Source of the DNA: Arthrobacter sp. CJ23
Lineage (GTDB): Bacteria > Actinomycetota > Actinomycetes > Actinomycetales > Micrococcaceae
Length of the DNA stretch: 64,000 nt
Direction of reading: 5' to 3'
Assembly: GCF_024741795.1 (NCBI RefSeq)
Contig: NZ_CP102950.1
Location: 3,720,001 to 3,784,000 of the forward strand
Part shown: one piece after another, positions 22,944 through 59,564 of the stretch
How the letters are laid out: each line of letters starts with the position of its first letter
Numbering within the stretch: position 1 is the first letter of the stretch
Notes under the pieces: model-generated
What the model was told of the DNA's origin: nothing
Seen by the model: only the letters and a program-made list of their open reading frames with translations
Databases searched by the model: none
Made by a program: the position numbers and the translations under genes

Positions 22944-24758
22944 ATGTCCAAGCAAACATCATTCTTCACCTCCGTCGGCCGCCTCTACCCTCATGTGCGG
23001 CCCATCCTCCCCCGGCTGTTCATGGGCCTTGTCTGCGCCCTGCTGGCCAGCATCGTGGCCCTGGCCATCCCGCAGGTGCTGCGGGTCCTGATCAACGATT
23101 CGCTCCGCCCCGGCGGTGCCACGGACGCCGTCTGGGCCGCCGCCGTCGTGATCCTCCTCCTCGGCCTCGCCGAGGCAGGCCTGGTGGCGCTGCGCCGCCA
23201 GTTCGTCATCAACCCGGCCACCACGGTGGAAACCAGGATGCGCGTCTCGCTCTACGGCCACCTGCAGGACCTCACCGTGTCCTTCCACGACCGCTGGGGT
23301 TCCGGGCAGCTGCTCTCGCGCGCCATGAGCGATCTCGCGTTCCTGCGCCGCTGGATGGCCTTCGGCGCCATCATGCTGGTGGTCACCACCCTGACCGTGG
23401 CGATCGGCGTGGTGGTGATGTTCTCCATGAGCTGGCAGCTGGCGCTGATCTTCCTCGCCGCCGCCGTGCCGATCATGGTCTACTCGTTCCGTTTCCGCCG
23501 CCGCTTCAGCCAGGTGGCGCGGCTCAGCCAGGACCAGGCCGGCGACCTGGCTACCACGGTGGAGGAATCCGTCCACGGCATCCGCGTGCTCAAGGCCTTC
23601 GGCCGCAGCCGCGAAGCGCTGGAGAACTTCAACGGGCAGGCCGAGGAACTGCGGCAGACAGAAATCACCAAGGCCAAGCAGCAGGCCAGCTTCACGCTGG
23701 TGGTGACGCTGCTGCCGGAACTCGCGCTCGGCGTCGGGCTGGTGGTGGGCATCATGCTCGCGGCCAGCGGACAGCTGAGCATCGGCGCGCTGGTGGCGTT
23801 CTTCGCCACGGCGGCCGTAGTGGCGGCGCCGGTCGAATTCTCCGGCATGCTCCTGGCCATGGCCCTCACCGCCAAGACCGCCCTGGACCGGCATTTCGAG
23901 GTCATGGACTCCGCCAACACCATCACCAGCCCGGAGCTTCCCGCGCGGCCCGCGGCTGTGCAGGGCGCCCTGAGCTTCAACGGCGCCGGATTCGGCTTCG
24001 ACGACGGCGGCCGGCTGCTGGAGGACATCACCCTGGACATCCGGCCGGGCGAGACCATGGCCCTGGTGGGCATCACGGGCAGCGGCAAGAGTGCGCTCCT
24101 GCAGCTTGTCCCCCGCCTGTACGACGTCACGGAGGGTTCCGTGACCATCGACGGCACCGACGTCCGCGACTTCGCCCTGGATGAGCTCCGCACCGTTGTG
24201 GCGGTCGCGTTCGAGGACACCACGCTGTTCTCCAGTTCGGTCCGGGACAATGTGCTGCTCGGCGCCCCGGACCCCAGCGACGCCGCCCTGGACGAGGCGC
24301 TCGACGTCGCCCAGGCGCACTTCGCGTACTCGCTGCCCGACGGAGTGGACACCTTGATCGGAGAGGAGGGCCTCAGCCTGTCCGGCGGCCAGCGCCAGCG
24401 CATCGCCCTGGCCCGGGCCATCGCGGCCAAGCCCAAGGTGCTGGTCCTGGACGATCCGCTGTCCGCGCTGGACGTCAACACCGAGGAACTGGTCGAGGCC
24501 CGGCTCCGCGTGGTGCTGCGGGACACCACCACGCTGATCGTGGCGCACCGGCCCTCCACCGTGGCTCTCGCGGACCGCGTGGCCCTGCTCGAGGACGGCA
24601 GGATCAGCGCCGTCGGGACCCACACGGAACTGCTGGCCGGGAACGACCATTACCGCTATGTGATCGCCAGCCTGGACACGGACCCCAAGGACCTGGACAG
24701 TGATCTCGACACCGAGCTGCACGAGCTGGAAGCCGACGCCAAGGAGGCCCGCCGATGA
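22944..24758 (+). CDS. ABC exporter, subunit with degenerate Walker B
   Basis: A 604-residue half-transporter with six membrane helices (about 15-310) and an ATPase domain. Walker A is [12 protein letters not shown] (about 375), the signature [12 protein letters not shown] (about 478) and the H-loop IVAHRPST. In Walker B ([12 protein letters not shown], about 501) aspartate replaces the catalytic glutamate. It overlaps the next gene by ATGA and surely forms a heterodimer with it, as in TM287/288-type exporters. Its own Walker motifs make the degenerate ATP site and its LSGGQ completes the active one. The cargo is unknown (lipid or drug). Confidence 0.92.
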
Positions 24759-26587
24759 GCACGACCGCATTCGGAACCGCCGATGAAGACAACGCCCACC
24801 TCACCCGCGCGGACAGCAAAGCCGTACGACGCCGGTCGCTCGCCCTGCTGGCCTCGCTGATCCGCCCCGTGCGGCTGAGGTTCTGGCTGACCATCGGCAT
24901 GGTGGTGGTCTCGCAGCTCACCCGCGTGGCCGGGCCCGCCCTGATCGCCTTCGGCATAGACCATGCCCTGCCCGCGCTCCAGGCCGGCGACAACGCGCCG
25001 CTGGTCCTCGGCGGCGTGCTATACCTGGCGGCGGCCATCGCCACCGCCGCCACCACGGCCCTGTATGTGACCTCCACGGCGCGCCTGAGCCAGGCCATGC
25101 TGCTGGACCTGCGGCTCCGGGTCTTCCGCCACACCCAGCGGCTGAGCCTGGAGTTCCACGAAAAGTACACCTCCGGGCGCATCATCGCCCGGCAGACCTC
25201 GGACCTTGAGGCCCTGCGCGAGCTGCTCGATTCCGGCGTGAGCTCCCTGGCCTCCGGGCTGCTGTTCATGGTGTTCACCGCCGTCACGGTGTTCATCCTG
25301 GACTGGCGCACCGGGTTGGTCATGCTCTGCGCCGGCGTCCCCATGTTCTTCCTGGCCCGCTGGTACCAGAAGCATTCCCAGATCGCCTTCCGCGAGTCCC
25401 GGGTGGTCTCGGCGCGGCTGATCGTCCACTTCGTGGAGACCATGACCGGCATCCGCGCCGTGAAGGCCTTCCGCAAGGAACGCGAAAACGCCGCGCGCTA
25501 CGGGCAGCTCTCGGAGGACTACCGGAAGAACACGGTCCGGTCCATCAACCTCAACGGCGTCTTCCAGCCGGGGCTGGTGCTGATCGGCAACGTGTGCGTG
25601 GCCGTGGTGCTCCTGCTGGGCGGCTTCCGGGTGCTCTCCGGCGGGCTGGCCGTGGGCGTGCTGCTGGCCCTCATCCTGTCCACCAAGCGCTTCTTCCAGC
25701 CGGTGGACCAGATGGCCATGTTCTACAACTCCTTCCAGAGCGCCCAGGCGGCGCTGGAGAAGGTCTCGGGGCTGCTGCAGGAGGTTCCCACCGTGCGCCC
25801 GCCCAGGAACCCCGTGGCCCTCAGGAATCCGCGGGGCAAGATCGAATTCCGCGGCGTCGAGTTCGGCTACGGTGACGGCCGCCTGGTGGTCCCGCACCTG
25901 GACCTGCACATCCCGGCAGGCCAGACCGTGGCCCTGGTGGGCCAGACGGGCGCCGGCAAGTCGACGCTCGCCAAGCTCGTGGCCCGCTTCTACGATGTCA
26001 CCTCGGGTTCCCTGGCGCTCGACGGCGTGGACCTGCGGCAACTCTCGACGACGGACCTGCGCCGCGCGGTGGTGATGGTCACCCAAGAGGCGTTCCTGTT
26101 CAGCGGTTCCGTGGCGGACAACATCGCCCTCGGCCGGCCGGAGGCATCGCGTGAGGAGATCGAGGCCGCCGCCCGCGCCGTGGGCGCCCACGAGTTCATC
26201 TCGGCGCTGCCCGAAGGCTACGACACGGACGTCAACAAGCGCGGCGGCCGGGTTTCCGCCGGCCAGCGGCAACTGATCGGCTTTGCCCGGGCGTTCCTGG
26301 CGGCTCCGGCGGTGCTGATCCTGGACGAGGCGACGTCCTCCCTGGACATCCCCTCGGAGCGGATGGTCCAGTCCGGCCTGGCGAGGCTTCTGGAGGGCTC
26401 CGCCTCCTCCGACGCCGGGCGCACGGCCATCATCATCGCGCACCGCCTCTCCACGGTGGAGACGGCGGATAGGGTCCTGGTGGTGCACGACGGCCGCGTG
26501 GTGGAGGACGGCACGCCGGCGGAACTGATCAGCGGCGGGGGCAGGTTCGCCCGGCTGCACGGGGCCTGGCGCGATTCACTCGTCTGA
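24755..26587 (+). CDS. ABC exporter, catalytic partner subunit
   Basis: A 610-residue half-transporter. It has six membrane helices, Walker [13 protein letters not shown] (about 396) and a Walker B with the catalytic glutamate ([12 protein letters not shown], about 522). The signature motif is changed to [12 protein letters not shown] (about 499) in place of LSGGQ. This is the exact complement of the defects in the upstream subunit, so a single consensus ATP site forms in the pair. Translation is probably coupled through the ATGA overlap. Confidence 0.93.
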
Positions 26588-26687: not shown

Positions 26688-26764
<77 letters not shown>

Positions 26765-26942: not shown

Positions 26943-26981
26943 GAAACCCCAGGACATTGCTTGTCAATGTCCTGGGGTTTC
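26943..26981. terminator. Two-way terminator downstream of the peptide gene
   Basis: A perfect 17-bp stem (GAAACCCCAGGACATTG with CAATGTCCTGGGGTTTC), loop CTTGT, with T-rich flanks on both strands. It lies 57 bases beyond the stop of the IGNWPDPM peptide gene. The rest of 26802-27038 shows nothing else. Confidence 0.85.
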
Positions 26982-27038: not shown

Positions 27039-27302
27039 TTACATCGGGTCCGGCCAGTTACCGATCCCGGAGTTGGTGGAGCTCATCGGGTCCGGCCAGT
27101 TGCCGATGGCGCTGCTGGAGCGCATGGGATCAGGCCAGTTGCCAATGGCATTGCTGACCCGCATGGGATCAGGCCAGTTGCCGATAGCAACCACACTGCT
27201 GACAACATTTGCGACGGGGGCTGCGGACACAACGGCCGGAGCCGCCGCGGAGAATGCAAGCGCGCCAGCCAAGGCGACGGACGCTGCGATCTTCTTGAAC
27301 AT
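27039..27302 (-). CDS. Secreted repeat peptide precursor (four IGNWPDPM copies), putative pheromone
   Basis: An 87-residue protein I do not recognise. It starts at ATG 27302 behind GAGGAAAATC. A Sec signal peptide (MFKKIAASVALAGALAFSAA...) has likely cleavage near VSA-AP (residues 26-28). The mature part is almost only repeats: IGNWPDPM at residues 40-47, 53-60, 66-73 and 80-87, the last ending the protein, separated by RVSNA, RSSSA and SSTNSG. This layout recalls multi-copy pheromone precursors. The copies differ in DNA only at silent positions. It is divergent from an HTH-TPR regulator across 128 bases. The signalling role is inference from layout. Confidence 0.85.
   Translation of the reverse strand: MFKKIAASVALAGALAFSAAAPAVVSAAPVANVVSSVVAIGNWPDPMRVSNAIGNWPDPMRSSSAIGNWPDPMSSTNSGIGNWPDPM
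27042..27185 (-). repeat. Four-copy octapeptide-coding repeat
   Basis: Units of 24 bases at 27162-27185, 27123-27146, 27084-27107 and 27042-27065, at periods of 39, 39 and 42 bases. Copies 1 and 2 share one codon set (CCT GAT CCC) and copies 3 and 4 another (CCG GAC CCG); every difference is silent. Confidence 0.92.
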
Positions 27303-27346
27303 GATTTTCCTCAATGCGAGTCGGATTCGTTACTGAAAGTGGCGCG

Positions 27347-27393
27347 GTCCCTGTTGACATACATTGTAAAATGTTTTCCACAGGGACTGTCAA
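27347..27393. promoter_or_regulatory. Shared operator/promoter between peptide gene and regulator
   Basis: GTCCCTGT (27347-27354) and ACAGGGAC (27380-27387) form a perfect inverted repeat. Centred on almost the same point is ACATT-GTAA-AATGT (27361-27374). On the reverse strand TTGACA (27393-27388) and TACAAT (27368-27363), 19 bases apart, make a plausible promoter for the peptide gene that the dyad would overlap. This is a likely binding site for the divergent regulator. Confidence 0.6.
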
Positions 27394-27430
27394 GGTCTTG
27401 GCTTTAAAGACTCGATTTCAGGAGGCATCC

Positions 27431-28726
27431 GTGGGAAACGGATTCGGCGAAAAGCTCCGTGCCGAACGGCTCGAACGCGGGTTAACACAAGCAGAGCTCG
27501 GCAAGAACCTCTACTCGCCAAGCTACATCTCCCTCCTCGAAACCGGCAGGCGCGAACCCACTGCGGAGGTCATCGAGGAACTGGCCCGGAGGCTGGAACT
27601 GGCCCCGAAAGCCCTGGAAGCCTGGAGCCAGCCCGTTTCGGTCAGCGATGCCGAGTATGTGCTTGCAGGACTGTATGCGCGGCAGGCCTGGGATCTGCGC
27701 GACTACCCCCTGGCGGCCAGCCACGCGGCCACTGCGGCCCAGATTGCCCTTGAAGGCAAGAACACCAGCGCGTGGTGGAACATGACGTACATGCAGGCCG
27801 AATGCCTCATGAAGCAGGGGCAGCTGAAGGAATGCCAGCAGATCATCCAGCACCTTTTGGAACACCCCATGGCAACGGAGTCCGCGGGCCTGGGCGTACG
27901 CGCCCGGCAGATGCTTGCCGCCGTCTGCCACGGCCAGGGCGAGCTGTCCACCGCCGTCGAGTACGCCAAGGAGGCGGTGGAGCTCTCCGAGCAGCTGCCC
28001 AAGGGCTCAACGCTCATCATCGGCGCCCACCGTGCGCTGATCGGTGCCCTGGCCGAGAGCGGCAAGCTGGACGAGGCGTGGAAGTACTGCGAGGCCATGA
28101 TGGAGCACATGGACGAACACGCCATGTCGCAGCTGGCCGGCGAGGTCGCCTGGGTGGTGGGCAACGTTGCCTTCATGCGCCACGACTACGCCGAAGGCAT
28201 CAAGCACCATGAGCGGGCAGCGAAGCTCCTCTCCCCTGCCAACGACATCGAGCTGTGGGCCCGGTTCAACAAGGCATCGGCAGCCGTCCGGCTGTCCTCG
28301 GGCATCGTGGAGCCGGAGACGCTCTCATCGATCGAACGCGCCGAGCTGGCGTTGTCGATCGTCGGAGGCAACCTGACGGACCAGCTCGAGGTCGCCTTCA
28401 TCCGTGCCCGGTGGCTGTACCTGACCGGCGACATCCTGGCCGCCGTCGCCAAGCTCCGCGAAATCCATGCCGACCGCAAGGCCCTGGCCCGGCACACCGC
28501 CGGCGAGGTCTCCCTGCTGCTGGGCAAGGCCCTCAAGGCGGCCGGCGAAAGCGAGGACGCCTTGGTCCACCTCGAGGAGGCCCAGCGCGACTTCAGCGCC
28601 GCCGGCGCCCAGGACCGGGTTCAGCAGGCCATGGACGCCGTCCTGGAAATCCGGCTGGCGGAACGCCGTGCAGCCGCGGCACGCGGCAACGCGTCCAGCC
28701 CCGGCAACGCGTCCATGGCGAGCTAG
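27431..28726 (+). CDS. HTH-TPR transcriptional regulator, RRNPP-like
   Basis: A 431-residue protein starting at GTG 27431 behind AGGAGG. Residues 4-58 form an XRE-type helix-turn-helix (FGEKLRAERLERGLTQAELG, SPSYISLLETGRREP). The rest is alpha-helical with tetratricopeptide character, e.g. AWWNMTYMQAECLMKQGQL, GVRARQMLAAVCHGQGELSTAVEYAKEAVEL, and LLLGKALKAAGESEDALVHLEEAQRDF. This layout and length match peptide receptors of the RRNPP group (PlcR, NprR, Rap, AimR), best known in Firmicutes. The divergent secreted repeat peptide is the obvious ligand candidate. The HTH and helical repeats are seen directly; peptide binding is inferred. Confidence 0.85.
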   Translation: MGNGFGEKLRAERLERGLTQAELGKNLYSPSYISLLETGRREPTAEVIEELARRLELAPKALEAWSQPVSVSDAEYVLAGLYARQAWDLRDYPLAASHAATAAQIALEGKNTSAWWNMTYMQAECLMKQGQLKECQQIIQHLLEHPMATESAGLGVRARQMLAAVCHGQGELSTAVEYAKEAVELSEQLPKGSTLIIGAHRALIGALAESGKLDEAWKYCEAMMEHMDEHAMSQLAGEVAWVVGNVAFMRHDYAEGIKHHERAAKLLSPANDIELWARFNKASAAVRLSSGIVEPETLSSIERAELALSIVGGNLTDQLEVAFIRARWLYLTGDILAAVAKLREIHADRKALARHTAGEVSLLLGKALKAAGESEDALVHLEEAQRDFSAAGAQDRVQQAMDAVLEIRLAERRAAAARGNASSPGNASMAS

Positions 28727-58169: not shown

Positions 58170-59564
58170 ATGGCGAACCCGAGCCCCGGTAACTCGATCA
58201 CCCTGCGCGTTGCCGCGCCGTCTAGCTTCACCGCCACGAGTGAACTCGCCGCCGCCGTCGGCGCAGCCGGCGCAGCCATCACCGCGCTTGACGTCACGGA
58301 ATCCCACCACGACACCCTTGTTGTCGACGTCACCTGCAACACCACCGACGACGACCACGCCGCCCGCGTCAAAGACGCCCTGAACGCGCTCGACGGCGTC
58401 ACGGTCCAGCACGTCTCGGACCGCACCTTCCTCATGCACCTCGGCGGCAAGCTCGAAGTGGTCCCCAAGGTGGCCCTGCGCAACCGCGACGATCTCTCCC
58501 GCGCCTACACGCCCGGCGTCGCACGCGTCTGCCTCGCCATCGCCGAAGACCCGGCCGCGGCCCGCAATCTGACCGTCAAGCGCAACACCATCGCCGTCCT
58601 CACCGACGGTTCGGCCGTCCTAGGCCTGGGCAACATCGGCCCCGCCGCGGCCCTGCCCGTCATGGAAGGCAAGGCCGCGCTGTTCAAGCAGTTCGCCAAT
58701 GTTGACGCCTGGCCGGTCTGCCTGGACACCCAGGACACCGAGGAAATCATCATGATCGCCAAGGCCATGGCCCCCGTCTACGGCGGCATCAACCTCGAGG
58801 ACATTGCTGCGCCGCGCTGCTTTGAAATCGAGAAGCGCCTGCGCGATGAACTCGACATCCCCGTCTTCCACGACGACCAGCACGGCACCGCAATCGTCAC
58901 CCTGGCAGCCCTCGTCAACGCCCTGCGCGTGGTGGACAAGAAGCTCTCCGAGGTCAAGATCGTGGTCTCGGGCGTGGGCGCTGCCGGCTCGGCCATCATC
59001 CAGCTCCTCAAGGCCCAGGGCGCGCAGCACATCGTCGCCGCCGGCCGCTCGGGCGCCATCCACTCCGGCCAGCAGTACGACGACGAGCACCGCTCCTGGA
59101 TCGCCGAGAACACCAACGAGGAAGGCTTCTCCGGCACCCTGCACGAAGCCATGGCCGGTGCCGACGTCTTCATCGGCGTCAGCGCCCCGCACGTGATCGG
59201 CGAGGAGCAGGTTGCTGCCATGGCCGAGAACGCGATCGTCTTCGCCATGGCCAACCCGACGCCGGAAATCGACCCGGTGCTCGCCTCCAAGCACGCCGCC
59301 GTGGTGGCCACGGGCCGCAGCGACTTCCCGAACCAGATCAACAACGTCCTGGCCTTCCCGGGCTTCTTCCGCGGTCTGCTGGACGCCGGAGCATCGGACA
59401 TCACGCCGGACATGCTGGTGGCAGCCGCAGACGCTATTGCCAACCGGGTGGCTGACGACGAGCTCAACGCGAGCTACATTATCCCCAGCGTCTTCGATCC
59501 GCATGTCGCCGCTGATGTGGCCGCCGCAGTGGCAGCCGCAGCGCACGCCGCCCGCGCTCTCTAG
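58170..59564 (+). CDS. NAD(P)-dependent malic enzyme with ACT domain
   Basis: Oxidatively decarboxylates malate to pyruvate. The 464 residues begin with an ACT-like regulatory domain (about 10-90), followed by the malic enzyme core. [13 protein letters not shown] and the catalytic lysine region [25 protein letters not shown] precede [12 protein letters not shown] (metal site) and the Rossmann motif [15 protein letters not shown] 58170 follows GAGGAGGAA. First gene of the four-gene operon. With malate synthase and AceE it can close an oxidation cycle for glyoxylate. Confidence 0.94.

Follow-up and report, generated by a model that had tools for sequence, protein, structure and literature searches.

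The window analyzed here, a stretch of 64,000 nucleotides from the genome of Arthrobacter sp. CJ23, contains a pair of divergently transcribed genes, one of which codes for a small repeat protein and the other for a regulator. The former, a peptide precursor gene on the reverse strand (27039..27302), specifies 87 aa with a predicted Sec-type signal peptide and four octapeptides IGNWPDPM. Its start was placed at the ATG at 27302, rather than at the TTG of a 91-aa form, on the basis of the ribosome-binding site GAGGAAAA upstream of this ATG and of the alignment with relatives. The putative signal peptide region (27216..27302, reverse strand; approximately residues 1–29, MFKKIAAS...VSAAP), delineated from the sequence with a crude hydrophobicity filter, begins with a Lys-Lys pair followed by a hydrophobic stretch and then by an Ala-x-Ala-like site. 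The octapeptides lie on the same strand at 27162..27185, 27123..27146, 27084..27107 and 27042..27065, with spacers of 5, 5 and 6 residues between them, and the last of them ends the protein; a DNA pattern for GNWPDPM matches these four copies only in the entire 4.63-Mb genome. A 16-bp perfect inverted repeat with a 5-base loop (26944..26980), which the terminator scan did not call, might from its sequence be the terminator of the precursor gene. No Pfam or NCBIfam family is matched over the cut-off by this precursor, and the same holds for three precursors tested from other branches of the family described below. Six ORFs of the window pass the signal-peptide filter, and two of these contain the dipeptide WP, namely the precursor and a long ORF at 58778-59467; since the latter also passes, WP by itself is not proof of a precursor.

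The forward gene (27431..28726) codes for a 431-aa receptor-regulator with a GTG start, 5 bp before which lies an AGGAGG ribosome-binding site (27420..27425, forward strand). An XRE-type HTH domain recognized by Pfam (residues 5–64; 27443..27622, forward strand) is followed by a predicted TPR superhelix (residues 71–421; 27641..28693, forward strand). The matches in Pfam are to HTH_31 (E 1e-11), HTH_3 (E 8e-11) and TPR_12 (E 1e-8), and over the cut-offs of Pfam and NCBIfam only such general HTH and TPR models, and no specific family, are recovered for this receptor and for four others from further branches. The match to RNPP_C (E 0.065) is below the cut-off and not significant, PlcR matches the receptor through the HTH only (profile E 6.6e-7), and no significant sequence match of the TPR region to known RRNPP receptors is present among the matches listed. 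An RRNPP-type fold, as proposed in the earlier note, is compatible with the structure model, which is a TPR superhelix, with the HTH part at pLDDT <50, and whose structural matches include Rap-peptide complexes and NprR; however, this is a common fold for which generic TPR proteins score higher, and the peptide groove has been weakly tested. RRNPP receptors use conserved peptide-contacting Asn residues in successive TPR A helices. In the model of our receptor, N245 and N280 each sit on the first helix of a repeat, the two repeats being consecutive, and both are kept in 81/85 peptide-linked receptors versus 25/43 unlinked ones (Fisher p 4e-7, uncorrected for relatedness).

The two genes share a promoter region of 128 bp (27303..27430), within which lies an operator-like 17-bp dyad, TTGACA-N5-TGTAAA (27354..27370); matches to ACATTGTAAAATGT with up to 2 mismatches are expected 0.01 times in shuffled windows. 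An alignment of 25 intergenic regions shows one almost invariant block, TTGACAnACATTGTAAA...TGTCAAG, between variable flanks. The conserved TGTCAAG (27388..27394, reverse strand) might be a third half-site or, read as CTTGACA on the minus strand, the −35 element of the precursor promoter, and the sigma-70 scan found no match. Thus, the anatomy of the locus given in the earlier note, i.e., a Sec-type precursor ending in the last of four IGNWPDPM copies and an XRE-HTH/TPR regulator divergent from it across a 128-base shared promoter with a strong dyad, is borne out by the ORFs, the Pfam matches and the shuffled windows.

Relatives of the pair were obtained by genome scans. Within the family, 116/245 genomes have a relative at E 1e-20 or better, and a divergent precursor is present at 30/30 of the best genome loci (the window's own included) and at 80/80 of the named loci, which are the best 80 of 130 found in a scan of genome contigs and are all titled Arthrobacter, Paenarthrobacter or Pseudarthrobacter. 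As all 80 named relatives have a divergent precursor, the pair is not a chance arrangement. The inheritance of the IGNWPDPM locus looks vertical from its kept neighbours, purC being found downstream in 78/80 named loci and the nearer of two ABC exporter genes upstream in 79/80. In the window, two adjacent ABC exporter half-transporters (TMD-NBD) occupy 22944-26587, upstream of the pair, and a tRNA-Pro (CGG) lies between them and the precursor at 26688-26764. Among 50,697 phage records no full-length relative was found and two partial matches cover the HTH only; scanning of viral contigs with two short patterns confirmed no relative; and 45 plasmid records, 40 of them from Streptomyces, have distant matches, those listed being 25–27% identical.

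Purifying selection on the octapeptide is strong, whereas the spacers and the copy number vary. The 81 precursors (the 80 named loci and the window) hold 213 near-intact octapeptide copies, 1 to 4 per gene, in the variants IGNWPDPM (140), VGNWPDPM (51), IGNWPDPA (14) and others (8), and in 78/81 of them the octapeptide is the C-terminal end. A lack of conservation between neighbours, which the earlier note had held to speak against its proposal, is thus not observed. Codon differences between the copies within a gene amount to 508 synonymous versus 24 nonsynonymous, when random mutation would yield 81% nonsynonymous, in a count that covers near-intact copies from strains that are not independent and underestimates nonsynonymous change by excluding degenerate copies (e.g., in L098). 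By comparison, 100 of the 132 spacers between copies are distinct. In the 80 named loci a copy is preceded by Ala in 119/209 cases and followed by the stop in 77, Arg in 52 and Ser in 45 of 209.

A profile of 14 receptors, used for order- and class-wide genome searches at a cut-off of E 1e-25, matches 23/347 genomes of the order (20 in the own family and 3 in family f17) and 8/296 genomes of the class, 3 of which are outside the order; the peptide-receptor system is mainly confined to one family. HTH-TPR genes divergent from small secreted Trp-Pro proteins, for which the earlier note had suggested a search, recur among relatives, and they belong to a broader family in which homologous receptors, down to 30–45% identity, stand divergent from small precursors that are variable except for a core [V/I]-G-x-W-P-x. 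Three kinds of precursors occur with this one receptor family: secreted multi-copy, secreted single-copy and leaderless ORFs of ~20 aa. Stretches were fetched in sets of 60, then 40 (39 usable), then 20, and at the distant loci L115-L214 a script looked for a precursor at each of 103 receptor rows, with the presence of the HTH determined by tblastn. At 44 HTH-less and 19 HTH rows there is a signal-like ORF, divergent from the receptor, whose mature part contains WP; no such ORF, a class called by a crude signal filter plus a search for WP near the stop and not firm, is found at 37 HTH rows and 3 others, one of the latter being a piece of the broken HTH receptor of L183. After hand checks, a secreted Trp-Pro precursor is present at 45/46 HTH-less rows and at 20 HTH rows; the signal-peptide filter, a crude hydrophobicity rule, had missed L142 and L182, and both were recovered by eye. 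As a control, 525 kb from these loci contain 91 signal-like small ORFs, among which the WP-bearing ones are 63 at the divergent place and 1 elsewhere.

In these 63 precursors, whose mode of selection fixed the W and the P of the core, the last WP has V/I three before the W in 53, G two before it in 48, and N, D, H, Y or F after the P in 55, with 36 ending there. Peptide types follow the branches of the receptor tree and include VGNWPDPS/F, VGIWPNS, VGNWPDA, TGNWPN, VWIWPD, VGDWPH, VGEWPH, VGNWPDRF, VGWWPN, VNWWPN, VNNWPF, VGSWPF and IGNWPY, among others. L171, L177 and L180 are single, divergent cases that may be due to chance. In family f17, where receptors are rare (6/186 genomes, and 5/149 in a second set), 6 of the 10 receptor loci read fit the Trp-Pro rule: VGGSWP occurs in two or three copies in 3 genomes of one genus group, ARGDWP stands at the stop in two genomes of another genus group, and DTWPA is found in one; at L263-L266 among the ten loci no precursor was seen.

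The dyad, in the form TTKACA-N5-TGTMAA, is present at 80/80 named loci and, with TTAACA allowed (4 of 14), at 14/16 of the other HTH loci with a secreted precursor that entered the test, from which L175, L177, L180 and L214 were left out. This amounts to 94/96 tested HTH loci with secreted precursors, the two in which a secreted precursor is present and the dyad absent being L169 and L174. It was found at 0/26 tested HTH loci with leaderless or no precursor and at 0/17 tested HTH-less loci. A site of the type TTGACA-N5-TGTAAA is present in 19/19 genomes of the genus, exactly once in 18 of them and twice in G833, with further symmetric sites in some, as against 2/19 for a backward control pattern; its position 5' of the receptor was confirmed by coordinates in G000, G009 and G177. 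From these patterns the dyad can be read as the predicted operator of the receptor; it could instead represent promoter elements of the precursor gene. A regulon beyond the locus is not claimed, the dyad being nearly private to this locus in the genome and in the 19 genus genomes. TTKACA-N5-TGTMAA occurs in two places in the whole genome, and the other site (3506113; L215 1501-1517) is a perfect TTGACA-N5-TGTCAA palindrome 5' of a GH109/Gfo-Idh-MocA gene.

The interpretation of the pair as a pheromone and its receptor, as proposed in the earlier note, is supported by this wider survey. With a probability of roughly 80%, the pair may be seen as a self-contained RRNPP-like peptide signalling module, in which an IGNWPDPM-type peptide is read by the HTH-TPR receptor and transcription is autoregulated. 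All RRNPP receptors but Rap have an N-terminal XRE-type HTH, and the window's pair combines this feature with a TPR superhelix in the structure model, an adjacent precursor with an export signal (as judged by the crude filter and by eye) and a peptide that is both C-terminal and repeated. The sequences show the gene pairing, the conservation of the peptide and the selection on it, the core common to divergent pairs, the dyad, the kept Asn residues and the GGDEF linkage; by analogy with RRNPP systems, we infer the processing, re-import and binding of the peptide, the binding of DNA, the direction of regulation and the dependence on density. Under this scheme, the precursor would be exported via Sec and cleaved on both sides of each repeat, with one cut sufficing for the last copy, to release a Trp-Pro peptide of ~6–8 residues with the core [V/I]-G-x-W-P-x, here IGNWPDPM. 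The peptide would return through one of the oligopeptide permeases of the genome, in which SBP_bac_5 (oligopeptide-permease-type binding proteins) is over the cut-off at 11 places, none of them at the window's pair, to which neither a permease nor a protease was seen linked. It would then be bound in the concave TPR groove, anchored partly by N245 and N280, and this would alter how the XRE domain binds the TTGACA-N5-TGTAAA dyad, resulting in autoregulation in step with the peptide level. Each homologous receptor would likewise read its own Trp-Pro peptide.

At the HTH receptors of genus group g32 no signal-peptide ORF was seen, and 10/16 loci (L167, L168, L183, L185, L236, L237, L241, L243, L244 and L246) have an ORF of 19–23 aa with a plausible ribosome-binding site that ends VGDWPD or VGNWPD at the stop; no leaderless ORF was seen at the remaining 6/16 (L166, L238, L239, L240, L242 and L245). 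Between these ORFs the pairwise identity is 94% over the last six residues and 16% over the preceding ten. In genus group g10, two 32-aa ORFs (L159, L247) end GIGDWPHA[A/D] and a 16-aa ORF at L163 ends NWPF, with none seen at L157. At L183, the HTH receptor is broken into two frames, yet the leaderless ORF ending VGDWPD is present. The leaderless ORFs of the VG[D/N]WPD kind, with no visible export signal, might suggest that sensing by the receptor takes place intracellularly, prior to export, with the precursor or fragments of it as the ligand. In this case the module would report the cell's own efficiency of translation or secretion and not cell density, with no need for re-import; that no permease was seen linked to the pair points the same way. 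We nevertheless regard this as unlikely: a Sec-like signal is present in the precursors at the named loci and at most of the distant loci linked to a peptide, the repetition is best understood if the copies are separated by cleavage, and leaderless peptides acting between cells are reported in Firmicutes in the available part of a study of RopB (PMC10518010).

Not every receptor of the family has an HTH. In a quick tree built from 122 receptors, the Rap-like ones that lack the HTH fall into a single group of 43 (SH-aLRT 98), L130 having been counted as HTH-less only because its alignment began late, which is a labelling artefact. The fetched flanks of 44 HTH-less loci contain both GGDEF and DUF7793 at 26, GGDEF only at 10, DUF7793 only at 1 and neither at 7. 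A GGDEF gene is thus near the receptor at 36/44 HTH-less versus 0/135 HTH loci, DUF7793 is found at 0/135 of the latter, and all the GGDEF matches at HTH-less loci run in the direction of the receptor. One such system is the second one in the window's own genome (L115, 979300-985300, at ~982 kb), where an HTH-less TPR receptor, divergent from a precursor with VGWWPN twice, adjoins genes for DUF7793 and for a HAMP-GGDEF-EAL protein (Pfam; EAL E 1e-74). Therefore, a single genome has both kinds of receptors with different peptides, IGNWPDPM and VGWWPN. This gene linkage suggests that the HTH-less sister clade probably acts on the adjoining GGDEF-type enzyme and not on DNA, with c-di-GMP probably being its output.

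The same receptors speak to a further alternative, namely that the precursor is a small secreted effector, a bacteriocin or a multi-core RiPP, merely repressed by the HTH-TPR protein. Multi-copy secreted repeats are also known in RiPP precursors, and the two ABC exporter genes upstream, with the nearer one so widely kept, would suit such a role. Against this, neither of the two neighbours tested for conservation (purC and the nearer exporter gene) is a RiPP modification enzyme, the core changes with the receptor clade, a conserved core of 6 residues is short for an effector, and HTH-less receptors, which are not expected to repress via DNA, have the same kind of partner. We hence consider this quite improbable and retain the reading of the precursor as the source of a signalling peptide.

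Regulators lacking the repeat gene, whose random occurrence the earlier note had held to speak against its own proposal, are numerous but clustered on the tree. In the extended set 41 loci are classed as without a precursor, and they are not randomly spread, because the label 'HTH, none' requires 11 changes on the tree versus 32.6 when shuffled. The 12 purC-linked receptors of g24 without a precursor make up a single clade (SH-aLRT 99), suggesting a single loss, and further such clusters are the second copies in g7 and the HTH receptors of g31; L204, where no precursor was seen, was recovered in two pieces. It is hardly credible that the two genes form a toxin-antitoxin-like pair, with a toxic signal-peptide protein under the control of the XRE-TPR protein. 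A small divergent protein with a hydrophobic segment does adjoin an XRE regulator, but conservation falls on the C-terminal peptide, where purifying selection is strong, and the 12-receptor clade without a detected precursor has retained its receptors.

A parallel for the proposed signalling module is offered by the RRNPP(A) systems of Bacillota (PlcR-PapR, NprR-NprX, Rap-Phr), which also have a TPR receptor with or without an XRE HTH and an adjacent small exported precursor with a short linear C-terminal peptide. The pairs described here differ from them in belonging to Actinomycetota, in their family-wide Trp-Pro core and divergent gene order, in showing no significant TPR sequence match, in having an HTH-less branch beside GGDEF genes, and in combining leaderless and secreted precursors within one receptor family. 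Rap partners are Spo0F or ComA, whereas the partner of the HTH-less receptors here is predicted to be a c-di-GMP enzyme. RopB is a receptor of the HTH-TPR type. Known actinobacterial signalling by gamma-butyrolactones, which are small molecules made by enzymes, and by cyclic or modified peptides has in common with the present pairs a proposed role between cells. The leaderless communication peptides of RopB, as described in the available part of their report (PMC10518010), similarly come from a short peptide gene without a signal sequence; that system is in another phylum, and here the core is VG[D/N]WPD and the receptor family is the same as that of the Sec-type precursors. Accessible portions of two further papers state that RRNPP(A) peptides are sometimes in several copies per precursor (PMC9765709) and describe the processing of duplicated propeptides (PMC11343458). 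A review on quorum sensing in actinobacteria lists, in its accessible part, butyrolactones along with cyclic or modified peptides, with no mention there of linear peptides read by TPR receptors (PMC4748050), and a large survey of RRNPP systems, in the part available, regards them as characteristic of Firmicutes and the signals of actinobacteria as usually being small molecules (PMC10075063). No description of a Trp-Pro peptide-receptor system was found in Pfam, NCBIfam or among the papers listed from the literature searched, outside which lie bioRxiv and most subscription journals; the Trp-Pro pairs seem to represent a kind of bacterial peptide signalling outside Firmicutes that has yet to be described.

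The family-wide Trp-Pro core, the leaderless precursors and the HTH-less receptors beside c-di-GMP genes could not be seen from the window alone, and they incline us, with somewhat better than even confidence, towards a broader view. This actinobacterial family, together with outlying cases in at least one other family of its order, would have its own Trp-Pro pheromone system, drawing on secreted multi-copy, secreted single-copy and leaderless precursors, with two outputs, transcription in the case of the HTH-TPR receptors and direct control of c-di-GMP turnover in that of the HTH-less ones beside GGDEF-EAL and DUF7793. If true, common soil actinobacteria would possess a conserved, chromosomal, gene-encoded code of linear peptides that is open to direct tests, which are feasible because each peptide can be purchased and each receptor is encoded by one gene only. 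If true, the association of HTH-less receptors with GGDEF genes would allow a peptide signal to be passed directly to a second messenger. As a single receptor family has secreted as well as leaderless precursors, the evolution of pheromone export can also be studied in it.

Two minor observations concern individual HTH-less loci. L128 and L129 each contain HTH-less receptors in tandem, and every one of these receptors is accompanied by a precursor of its own with a distinct Trp-Pro peptide (IDDWPH and VGNWPG in one case, IDNWPN and VGNWPD in the other). Upstream of the HTH-less receptors at L120 (967-2652) and L122 (956-2599) lie genes for GAF-histidine kinases, that of L120 with a receiver domain, which are possible further partners of such receptors.
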